Source: Pseudomonadales bacterium
Lineage (GTDB): Bacteria > Pseudomonadota > Gammaproteobacteria > Pseudomonadales > Pseudohongiellaceae
DNA length: 64,000 bases
Direction: 5' to 3'
Assembly (NCBI GenBank): GCA_012103535.1
Contig: WLWQ01000002.1
Coordinates: forward strand, 372,001 to 436,000
Shown here: positions 1,016 through 3,819 of the stretch, piece by piece
Layout: each line of letters opens with the position of its first letter
Numbering within the stretch: the first letter of the stretch is position 1
Notes under the pieces: generated by a model
The model's input: only the letters and a program-made list of their open reading frames with translations
The model's database searches: none
What the model was told of the DNA's origin: nothing
Position numbers and translations under genes: made by a program

Positions 1016-2218
1016 TTAGATAATCTCAGAGTTATAACCATTCTCGCGCAGAGAATTTAGAATCTTGTCGGCCTGACTGGCGTCCCGAGTTTCAACAGTA
1101 AGATAGAGATCGGCTTCTTTAACCGGGACGCTGGAGAACATGCGCTGGTGTGACACTTCTAAAATATTACCTCCCAGTTCACCGATTAGTTGAGTCACAT
1201 CCGAGAGAGTTCCGGGAGAATCAGAAATCTTGATCAAGTAGCGCACGATGCGGCCTTTGCGCACCAGCCGTCGCATAAGCACCGAAGCGAGAATACGGGA
1301 ATCGATATTTGCGCCACACAAAAGCACTGCCGTTTGTTGCCCTTTAAACAATTCAGGTTTTGTCATGACAGCGGCTAGCGAAGCGGCGCCAGCCCCTTCC
1401 GCCACCGTTTTCTCAATAGTAACTAGCAGATCAATCGCATCTTCAATCGACTCTTCACTCACGACGATAATGTCATCCACTAGTTTCTTTATAACTTGAA
1501 GAGTGAGTTCACCTGGTTGCTTTACTGCGATGCCCTCAGCGATTGTGGTACCGCCACAAGGTGTGTCAGTGCCGGTCATGGCGTTGTTAACAGATGGATA
1601 ACCCTCGACTTCGACGCCAATGATACGAATGGACGGTTTAATCTCCTTAGCGGCGATCGCTATTCCACTGATTAACCCACCGCCTCCTATCGGCACTACT
1701 ATTACTTCCAAATCAGGATTCGCTTCCATCATCTCCAAAGCAATTGTTCCCTGGCCGGCCATTATCTGTTCATCATCATAGGGATGAATAAAAGTTAAGC
1801 CTTTCGCTGCTGCTATTTCCTGTGCATGGCTCGCGGCTTCGTCCAGCGATGATCCTTCCAAGATTACTTCGGCATTAAAGTTCTGCGTGTCTTCAACTTT
1901 AACATTCGGTGTGTTCTTAGGCATGACGATAGTGGTTGGGATGCCAAGCCGTTGACCATGATAAGCCACGGCTTTTGCGTGATTGCCCGCAGACATAGCA
2001 ATCACTCCTGCCTTTTTTTGTTCATCTGAAAGTTGCAGAAGTTTGTTCAGCGCACCACGCTCTTTAAACGATGAAGTAAATTGCAGATTCTCAAACTTAA
2101 GATAGATCTCGCTCTCTAATATAGAAGAAAGAGTTTGGGATTTTTCAAAACGAGTTTCGACAACGGCAGAACGGATTCGTTCAGCTGCAGCCTGAATGTC
2201 TTTTAAGTCGATAGTCAT
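1016..2218 (-). CDS. ilvA: Threonine ammonia-lyase, medium form with one ACT domain
   Basis: A 400-residue PLP-dependent threonine deaminase converting L-threonine to 2-oxobutanoate and ammonia, the entry to isoleucine synthesis or threonine breakdown. The PLP lysine is in SSFKERGA (K52). The substrate loop SAGNHAKAVA and the glycine-rich phosphate loop PIGGGGLISG follow in family order. Residues from about 328 form one ACT domain, as in the 400-aa form, not the 500-aa two-ACT E. coli IlvA. It starts only 6 bases after the stop of the selenoprotein gene, so it is probably last in a three-gene operon. A TdcB-like catabolic role is possible. Confidence 0.93.
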   Translation of the reverse strand: MTIDLKDIQAAAERIRSAVVETRFEKSQTLSSILESEIYLKFENLQFTSSFKERGALNKLLQLSDEQKKAGVIAMSAGNHAKAVAYHGQRLGIPTTIVMPKNTPNVKVEDTQNFNAEVILEGSSLDEAASHAQEIAAAKGLTFIHPYDDEQIMAGQGTIALEMMEANPDLEVIVVPIGGGGLISGIAIAAKEIKPSIRIIGVEVEGYPSVNNAMTGTDTPCGGTTIAEGIAVKQPGELTLQVIKKLVDDIIVVSEESIEDAIDLLVTIEKTVAEGAGAASLAAVMTKPELFKGQQTAVLLCGANIDSRILASVLMRRLVRKGRIVRYLIKISDSPGTLSDVTQLIGELGGNILEVSHQRMFSSVPVKEADLYLTVETRDASQADKILNSLRENGYNSEII

Positions 2219-2224
2219 AACTGT

Positions 2225-2749
2225 TTACTTCTGAAGTATTAGCTCGTCGATGGCTTGCAGAGTCTGCTCAGCTTTCGCTGCAAGTTCATCATCTGTGGCG
2301 CTACTAACGGGATGATCGATTACAGCGAATTGATAGTTCAGTGAACCCAACACCCGGGCCATCAATTCTGCTGCGCTAATGAAATTGTTAGTCATAACAC
2401 CAAGTGCAGGTGTGCCGTTTCGTTCGCTACTGACAGCATCATGCAAACTGCACGATGAGCAACTGCCTCAGTCACCCAGGCCAGTTACCGCAAGATCCCA
2501 AGCCTGTGCTCGTTCGATAATGTCATCCTCAGCGGGGGCGCTGTAGTTCGATTTGGTTTCCCAGATGATGTCAGCAACTTTGAATTTCTCGCGCAGCAAG
2601 TTATCCAAATGTTTAAAAAAACCATCAGTTCCTTCTTTGCCGTTGGAGATAAAGCCAACGGTTTTGCCATCTAAAGTACTTAGCCGCGGGGCGAGTTCGA
2701 AATTTTCGGCTTGCAGTTCAATAGTTGGATTGAGCACCGTAAGCGCCAT
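2225..2749 (-). CDS. UGSC-family selenoprotein (in-frame UGA read as selenocysteine)
   Basis: One 174-residue protein split by an in-frame TGA at 2468-2470 (codon 94). The upstream half ends DLAVTGLGD; the same frame continues after the TGA as GSCSSCSLHDAV and runs to a TAA. The joined motif D-U-G-S-C-S-S-C is the signature of UGSC selenoproteins known from marine metagenomes. A SECIS-like hairpin follows the UGA directly. The Sec/Cys cluster suggests a redox or reductase-like active site; the segment resembles the U-G-T-C region of glycine reductase GrdB, and no function is proven. It sits 23 bases after the 348-aa gene and 6 bases before ilvA. The alternative, a nonsense mutation, would not explain the intact downstream Cys motif and hairpin. 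Start chosen at ATG 2749 (MALTVLNP). Confidence 0.9.
2432..2470 (-). promoter_or_regulatory. Bacterial SECIS element (UGA plus downstream stem-loop)
   Basis: Read on the minus strand, the UGA (2470-2468) is followed by a lower stem GGCAG/CUGUC (2467-2463 with 2436-2432), a 5-nt bulge UUGCU, and a 9-bp upper stem CAUCGUGCA/UGCAUGAUG (2457-2449 with 2445-2437) closed by GUU (2448-2446). The loop begins with G and lies 19 nt after the UGA, within the known bacterial spacing of roughly 16-37 nt. The element would bind SelB to deliver Sec-tRNA. The pairing is seen directly; SelB binding is inferred. Confidence 0.82.
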
Positions 2750-2772: not shown

Positions 2773-3819
2773 TTACACTTCACAGTCGACACAAGCACCG
2801 ATAGCTAGTGTGACTGCCTGACTCTTGGTTCCGAGCCAGGGAGGGATGATAGCGCCAAAGCCGCCGGCAGGGCCACCAGCAGCTACTACTAATAGATGAT
2901 CGGGAGAAGCCAAGGCGCAATATTCTGTATCGCCTTTGTCTCTTACTACCGAAGCTTTGCCAACAGCGGCCCATTCTTTTCGCTGAATTCGGGCTTTTTC
3001 GAAAAGGTAGTTTGCAACATCGGTCTTAGACCAGCCCGCTTGTTGCAACAGATCTCGATGTTGCTTCGGAACGACGATAGCGTAATTACCTGCCCAAATA
3101 GAGTAGCTCAGCATATTTGCTTTCATTTCCGCGGCATAAGTATCGAGAATTTCTTTCGGATCCTTGGTCCACTCATTCATTATCTGCCGAGGAGAACTGG
3201 CGGCAAAAACCGTTACGGCGGACACGTCATTTGGCAGTCCTCGAATTTCAGCTAAGGATTGCCATTCCGTGCCTTCTTCATCTTCGGCAACGCAATAACT
3301 GATCTTGCCAGGATGGCCTAATGTGGATCGATCAATCGCGCCAGGACTCACATCTAACAAATTTATCAATCCCAAGCGTATTGCACGGCCAATTACCGAT
3401 GTCGCTCTGTCGCTGCTGCCCAATACGTTAAATTCAGACTGGCATCCAATTTCTTTTCTTACCGGGCCGTTAATTACCATGAAGATGGCGCAACCCCCGG
3501 TGCTCGCAGTTGTGCCGTGCAACAAAAATTCTTCTTTCAGCAGCGCCATCCAGGCAGCAACAACCACGGGGAAATGCATCGGCAGGCAACCGGCCATTAC
3601 CGCATTAATCGCGAGCTTTTCCGCAGTGATGCTGCGCTCTCGTACTGGTTCGATCCCGATAAGCTCATCCGGCGTCATGTGCACCCAGTCCAGACAGGCC
3701 TGTATAGATTCAGGAGTGGGAGGAACCACAGGAAATCCATCAGTCCAACCGCGACTGTGATAGAACTCCTGAACGTCTTCAGTGCTTTCGAGATCGAACT
3801 GTTCAGATTGCAGATTCAT
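2773..3819 (-). CDS. Uncharacterised 348-aa protein, operon partner of the UGSC selenoprotein
   Basis: I do not recognise a characterised family. No signal peptide or membrane segment is evident, so it is probably cytoplasmic. It has an N-terminal WTDGFPVVPPTPE segment, a central TTASTGGCAIFMVINGP segment with conserved-looking glycines and Cys, and a C-terminal tail ending GACVDCEV, a CxxC placed at the very end. It lies 23 bases upstream of the selenoprotein gene on the same strand, so the two are probably translated from one mRNA and may act as a complex or redox pair. The CxxC tail could exchange disulfide or selenylsulfide with the UGSC cluster; that is inference. The start ATG at 3819 is divergent from the crotonase gene across a 185-base promoter region. 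Confidence 0.8.
   Translation of the reverse strand: MNLQSEQFDLESTEDVQEFYHSRGWTDGFPVVPPTPESIQACLDWVHMTPDELIGIEPVRERSITAEKLAINAVMAGCLPMHFPVVVAAWMALLKEEFLLHGTTASTGGCAIFMVINGPVRKEIGCQSEFNVLGSSDRATSVIGRAIRLGLINLLDVSPGAIDRSTLGHPGKISYCVAEDEEGTEWQSLAEIRGLPNDVSAVTVFAASSPRQIMNEWTKDPKEILDTYAAEMKANMLSYSIWAGNYAIVVPKQHRDLLQQAGWSKTDVANYLFEKARIQRKEWAAVGKASVVRDKGDTEYCALASPDHLLVVAAGGPAGGFGAIIPPWLGTKSQAVTLAIGACVDCEV

Follow-up and report, generated by a model that had tools for sequence, protein, structure and literature searches.

A UGSC-family gene with a predicted selenocysteine codon and its near-constant partner gene in a Pseudohongiellaceae bacterium

Results and discussion

Organization of the locus

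The window analyzed here is a 64,000-nucleotide stretch of the genome of a Pseudomonadales bacterium of the family Pseudohongiellaceae. Profile matches and codon comparison identify, on its reverse strand, a predicted selenoprotein gene of the UGSC family (positions 2225-2749; 174 codons plus the stop) with one in-frame UGA (2468-2470, reverse strand), the codon of the predicted Sec94, at which the named loci that were found carry Cys. The same strand contains, past the UGA, a predicted bacterial SECIS (bSECIS) hairpin (2437-2457) consisting of a 9-bp stem with a 7-bp core (2439-2455) and the apical loop GUU. Directly upstream of the UGSC gene, also on the reverse strand, lies a gene for a 348-residue protein (2773-3819; motif GWTDGFPVVPPT), homologs of which adjoin and co-occur with UGSC and which we refer to as the partner; judging from the cysteine classes of the partners, its C-terminal CVDC (2782-2793, reverse strand) is the proposed dithiol for Sec. 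On the other side, a threonine ammonia-lyase gene (1016-2218, reverse strand) starts 6 nt past the UGSC stop and is possibly co-transcribed with UGSC; no homolog of this gene clustered in the other regions compared. Promoters and terminators were found in numbers of 4 and 1, respectively, with 4.4 and 2.5 expected. A defense role was considered and rejected, with no match in PADLOC.

The reading frame and its UGA

The list of open reading frames cuts the UGSC frame into two, of 93 (2468-2749) and 73 (2225-2446) amino acids, which the preliminary description took for a single reverse-strand frame broken only by the TGA at 2468-2470. Translation confirmed this, TGA 2470-2468 being the sole internal stop in the frame from 2749 to 2225, as did a single match to PF24696 (UGSC; positions 2-169 of 172) that spans both halves. 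In the profile search that had been suggested, the read-through protein scored 161.9 bits against PF24696 (cut-off 25) and 126.5 bits against NF041046, “UGSC family (seleno)protein” (cut-off 125). The UGSC motif recognized in the preliminary description, GLGD-U-GSCSSC, is indeed present in the joined frame (GLGD-U-GSCSSCSLHDA at U94), in agreement with the (U/C)-G-x-C pattern that carries either Sec, encoded by UGA, or Cys. The designation “hidden” applies only in part, as the family itself is named in both Pfam and NCBIfam, the cut-off of the latter being only narrowly passed.

Comparison with the relative L032 yielded 11, 8 and 42 differences at codon positions 1, 2 and 3, respectively, in 65 codons upstream of the TGA, and 15, 9 and 46 in 68 codons downstream; 

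The expectation that gene callers would truncate such proteins is borne out by the databases. Among 93 UGSC homologs (out of the 274 scored in the protein search), 60 end in GD, just before the expected Sec site, 16 have Cys at this site, 10 leave it uncovered, and 7 carry Arg, Trp, Ser or Gly, so that UGSC proteins tend to be lost by gene callers. The last seven (P0002, P0004, P0005, P0006, P0009, P0012 and P0065, of which P0012 stands for two sequences and each of the others for one) belong to the kind of homolog that, according to the preliminary description, would speak against selenocysteine; they stand against the clear exchange with Cys in 45 loci described below. Given that, in the genetic code, each of these four amino acids has a codon one base away from TGA, the respective forms are likely sequencing errors, and they may be over-represented in the database because TGA forms are cut short.

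The source genome (4.53 Mb, 97.7% complete) encodes all four components of the selenocysteine machinery that the preliminary description proposed to look for, and whose absence it named as an argument against its reading: a tRNA-Sec (62.4 bits, above the Rfam cut-off, with the anticodon tca), SelB (386.1 bits), SelA (600.8 bits) and SelD (295.8 bits). UGSC selenoproteins are also described from genomes with a CUA-anticodon tRNA-Sec (PMC5330540). A second UGSC gene of the source genome, located elsewhere (C3:1007884-1008378), has TGA at the same site. At L022 1390-3660 (reverse strand; C3:930879-931802), SelD forms the C-terminal part of a 756-residue frame, the N-terminal half of which resembles, by eye, NADH dehydrogenase; PMC2398784 names such an Ndh-SelD fusion type.

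Exchange of selenocysteine and cysteine in relatives

PF24696 was detected in 24 of 38 genomes, including the source genome. Exactly one TGA is present in 37 of the 39 PF24696-matched stretches from the 38-genome set, the other two being short, with frames of only 57 and 43 amino acids, and every one of the 31 loci retrieved from these genomes has TGA at the Sec site. A scan of named genomes, with a search pattern able to find Cys forms only, identified 45 loci in Proteobacteria, Actinomycetota and Bacteroidota with Cys (TGC or TGT) at the site. These are the Cys homologs, aligned at U94, that had been asked for, and their spread indicates that the attribution of the motif to marine selenoproteins was too narrow. 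Bradyrhizobium and Methylobacterium are examples of hosts of natural Cys forms. Positions that are invariant in an alignment of 20 UGSC sequences include U/C94, Gly95, Cys97, Asp104, His146 and Pro147; Cys100 varies across the same alignment.

SelA is encoded in 23 of 26 TGA genomes (the source genome and 22 of 25 others) vs 18 of the 47 Cys genomes, in which it scored over the cut-off (the completeness of the 45 named ones is not given), with a Fisher p of 2.8e-5 that, like the Mann-Whitney and co-occurrence figures of this work, treats related genomes as independent. Of the three TGA genomes lacking a SelA match, G016 and G023 encode a tRNA-Sec, and none over the cut-off was found in G008, which is 65% complete. 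A UGSC-like gene in genome G314 (L100, C6:12789-13246) consists of two matched pieces and has Cys at the Sec site and TGA elsewhere in the frame; no SelA over the cut-off was found in this genome, and the gene is possibly a decaying copy. Having Cys at the site, G314 was counted with the Cys genomes.

The predicted SECIS hairpin

The spacing of a bSECIS is counted from the UGA to the G of the apical loop; in the RNA fold of the window, 19 nt separate the two. The constraints given for bSECIS elements are an apical loop of 3-9 nt, an upper stem of 4-16 bp, a G at loop position 1 or 2, and a spacing of 16-37 nt (PMC13188914). The GUU loop with G in the first position, the 9-bp stem and the 19-nt distance in the window all fall within these ranges.

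The hairpin past the UGA is conserved. All seven pairs of its core form in 29 of 33 TGA loci, whereas no Cys locus, out of 47, has the full core. A motif filter kept L099, the hairpin of which forms six of the seven pairs, out of this count; L103 (a duplicate) and the short G314 piece (a fragment) were also dropped before counting. Furthermore, the Ser101 codon that supplies the G of the loop is AGT in all 29 Ser-bearing TGA loci vs one of 46 Ser-bearing Cys loci. Under synonymous recoding, TGA loci have a mean z of -1.86 and Cys loci one of -0.64 (p 2e-5; related loci treated as independent). Two stem pairs vary and yet stay paired, one of them by a two-sided change in the distant L102; the covariation score was reached by 24 of 500 shuffles, a modest level of support because the alignment contains only 15 distinct rows. 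The hairpin of the window itself is only mildly stable and its energy is unexceptional (z of -1.12 against shuffles, 26 of 200 of which fold as well; synonymous z of -1.00). In four divergent TGA loci (L033, L036, L037 and L047), this hairpin is absent.

The partner gene

No Pfam or NCBIfam family matched the partner (2773-3819) in the profile scans. A partner homolog adjoins UGSC in all 45 named Cys loci, two of these homologs being cut by the contig end (L067 and L088), and in 28 of the 31 TGA loci, or 29 when a contig-end piece in L043 is included; in the remaining two, L029 and L030, the partner is located on the same strand, at distances of 3.8 and 2.3 kb, respectively. Among 398 genomes sampled from one phylum, with up to 4 partner candidates scored per genome, UGSC was found in five, and exactly these five also yielded the partner; at all 7 UGSC matches compared in these genomes, the match ends of the two are 15-57 bases apart. 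With random placement of the four genomes besides the source one, and with relatedness ignored, the chance of this co-occurrence is 1e-9. In addition, in a single database fragment, P0070, the C-terminus of the partner is joined in frame to the N-terminus of UGSC. Judging from gene order and co-occurrence, the pairing of UGSC with the partner is near-strict. Protein searches of differing reach yielded at least 7081 partner homologs among 7998 scored vs 93 of 274 for UGSC; truncation at the TGA blunts the UGSC search, and partners without UGSC may exist.

The partners have a cysteine pair in one of two mostly exclusive places. Among 71 classed partners, an N-terminal CxxC is the sole arrangement in 38 and a C-terminal cysteine pair in 22; the two are combined in 1 and both lacking in 10, with the caveats that the frames run from stop to stop, such that a few N-terminal CxxC motifs may fall outside the true gene (L055, L059), and that some frames are cut at the 5' end; eight motif-less frames (L025, L042, L043, L044, L057, L067, L088 and L102) were left out of the classes. 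In L019, L097 and L101, the CxxC-bearing extension resembles thioredoxin at scores below the family cut-offs, namely, 23.2 bits for Thioredoxin_2 in L019 (cut-off 27) and 24.5 bits for TIGR01068 in L097 (cut-off 96.8); the extension in L068 had no match in the family scan. By clustering, a thioredoxin reductase gene is located near the pair in 3 of the 45 named loci. In L054, from Chelatococcus, this gene begins at the UGSC stop (262 bits, under the curated cut-off of 343); in L097, from Bradyrhizobium, the order by cluster, on one strand, is GntR-type regulator, thioredoxin reductase, dicarboxylate carrier, partner with the thioredoxin-like extension, and UGSC; in L085, the reductase gene is on the opposite strand.

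At the second UGSC locus of the source genome (L019 4879-6849, reverse strand; C3:1007878-1009848), UGSC is preceded by a 480-residue protein that combines a thioredoxin-like domain containing CPTC with a paralog of the window partner.

Predicted folds

The thioredoxin fold ends in a C-terminal strand-strand-helix unit, and Prx-like, Trx-like and SelW-like selenoproteins of this fold carry a redox motif, UxxC, at the N-terminal end of a helix. The AlphaFold2 model of UGSC (pLDDT 93.8, pTM 0.88) shares the position of the motif, with Sec94 (modeled as Cys) at the junction of strand 86-92 with helix 95-110 and Cys97 following three residues later, and differs from these proteins in the order of strands and helices: its elements (E30-35, H41-56, E60-65, H75-81, E86-92, H95-110, E115-120, H121-133, E142-144 and H153-171) alternate to the very end of the chain. 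We therefore predict from the model a Rossmann-like fold in which strand and helix alternate five times. A thioredoxin-like fold was suggested for UGSC in PMC2398784 and PMC13188914; if the Rossmann-like fold holds, this label should go. The partner model (pLDDT 89.2) produced no convincing match to solved structures, and in sequence searches for solved relatives, UGSC had nothing below E 0.07 and the partner no hit.

A possible two-subunit selenol reductase

The 2225-2749 gene encodes a UGSC family protein into which Sec is predicted to be inserted by UGA read-through and which likely serves as the selenol subunit of a two-subunit reductase formed with the 2773-3819 product. The best reading of the pair is, likely, a thioredoxin-fed selenol reductase of two subunits, mainly because the cysteine pair of the partner occurs in two mostly exclusive places and, additionally, because of the three loci with thioredoxin reductase. 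Under such a scheme, Sec94 would be the reactive selenol that attacks the substrate and is then released as an Se-S bond, in which the sulfur would most simply be that of the invariant Cys97. This bond would be reduced by the dithiol of the partner, which some partners would carry in an N-terminal thioredoxin-like domain and others as a C-terminal pair (CVDC here), and the dithiol would be refilled by thioredoxin reductase and NADPH.

A broader proposal, for and against which we see the case as about evenly balanced, is that UGSC, rather than being a stand-alone protein of the thioredoxin fold, is one half of an undescribed two-subunit selenoenzyme, comprising a Rossmann-like Sec subunit and an obligate partner of no known fold that brings its own exchangeable electron donor, in the form of a thioredoxin-like domain fused to it or of a cysteine pair at its C-terminus. 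Such an enzyme might correspond to the anaerobic selenocysteine reductases but tolerate oxygen, with a function in small-molecule catabolism. With a near-fixed partner and a likely electron donor, the orphan UGSC motif becomes a system that could be rebuilt in vitro.

Could the UGA be an ordinary stop, making the gene a pseudogene or the product of a nonsense mutation that encodes a 93-residue fragment? The 60 of 93 database homologs that end in GD would fit such a view, which is nevertheless highly improbable: constraint on the codons is the same on both sides of the TGA, one TGA is found again in 37 of the 39 stretches matched in 38 genomes, the genome encodes the Sec machinery, and a conserved hairpin lies past the UGA. 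Quite unlikely, too, is a stand-alone thioredoxin-like thiol peroxidase or disulfide reductase, with the partner acting elsewhere or as a chaperone. UxxC motifs are typical of thiol oxidoreductases and point in this direction, but the confident UGSC model lacks the strand-strand hairpin of the thioredoxin fold, and the near-strict pairing with the partner also argues against it.

It is possible, if doubtful, that UGSC and the partner form a substrate-specific reductase analogous to glycine, betaine or D-proline reductase, in which the selenol would cleave a C-N or C-S bond with electrons from thioredoxin. GrdB and PrdB, of the glycine/sarcosine/betaine and D-proline reductases, have a UxxC with selenocysteine placed between strand and helix, an arrangement that they share with the UGSC model, and receive electrons from thioredoxin. 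A TGA-bearing GrdB/PrdB-like family in relatives has a similar local pattern (strand, UxxC, helix, G-I, (F/H)P), and in five Bacteroidota, a gene for a beta-keto acid cleavage enzyme directly precedes the UGSC-partner pair. No significant sequence or profile relation to UGSC was found, however: when UGSC was considered as a stripped-down GrdB/PrdB (selenoprotein B), profile comparison gave probabilities of 2.6% (P 0.017) and 1.2%, with 0.2% for unrelated control profiles, and a Pfam scan of P0001 to E 10 detected no match to PF07355 (GrdB/PrdB). In the alignment of the UGSC profile with the GrdB-like one (built from 19 of 120 listed homologs and the query), the conserved helix and G-x-P segments are in register, but the GrdB-like Sec falls on Cys97, not on Sec94. 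Given the weak profile probability and the shift of Sec by three residues, we leave GrdB/PrdB as an analogy to the proposed two-subunit reductase.

Relation to the published UGSC family

The UGSC family was in print by 2008 (PMC2398784), where it ranks as one of the major selenoprotein families in aquatic metagenomes, with 255 Sec forms, and it is also treated in PMC9312934, PMC5029168, PMC7539508 and PMC5330540; the window selenoprotein is, therefore, a further member of a known family. It resembles the family known from the Global Ocean Sampling survey (NF041046/PF24696) in the whole-frame profile match, the U/C-G-S-C motif, the UGA at the Sec position and the existence of Cys homologs, and itself shows no difference. 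The function of such proteins is still described as largely uncharacterized in a 2026 review (PMC13188914). No partner gene of UGSC is named in the titles and abstract openings of the open-access papers on UGSC that were searched, and in the passages considered, there is no mention of the pairing, the two cysteine arrangements of the partner or a Rossmann-like model, save for the fusion of UGSC to a domain named Unknown_1 (PMC2398784), possibly, though not necessarily, the partner family. The near-obligate partner and the fold may thus be parts that a specialist has not seen.

Other recurring neighbors

Across 67 clustered regions, the partner, some loci of which were clustered under an antisense frame (cluster 2), is the only general neighbor of UGSC. 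By family names taken from scans of one to three members per cluster, other neighbors recur in fewer regions: thiolase in 9, amino-acid permease in 8, parts of a LIV-type transporter in 7, enoyl-CoA hydratase in 6, and beta-keto acid cleavage enzyme and CoA-transferase III in 5 each. In some loci, these neighbors suggest, inconsistently, catabolism of small organic or acyl-CoA compounds. In the five Bacteroidota (L086 and L090-L093), beta-keto acid cleavage enzyme, partner with the thioredoxin-like extension and UGSC follow each other in this order, with a prolyl-oligopeptidase-like gene after UGSC in four of the five and with genes for an AraC regulator, 3-hydroxyacyl-CoA dehydrogenase and a permease in divergent orientation (families assigned from scans of single cluster members, mostly from L086); this arrangement is a clade-specific catabolic cluster.

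PF07355 was not found in the source genome. In relatives, the GrdB/PrdB-like gene (PF07355, 20-27 bits) is split by one TGA in the context VLVPL-TGA-PVCHQTV, at 1447-2325 of L104 (forward strand) and also in L105, L106 and L107, and likely encodes a further selenoprotein.
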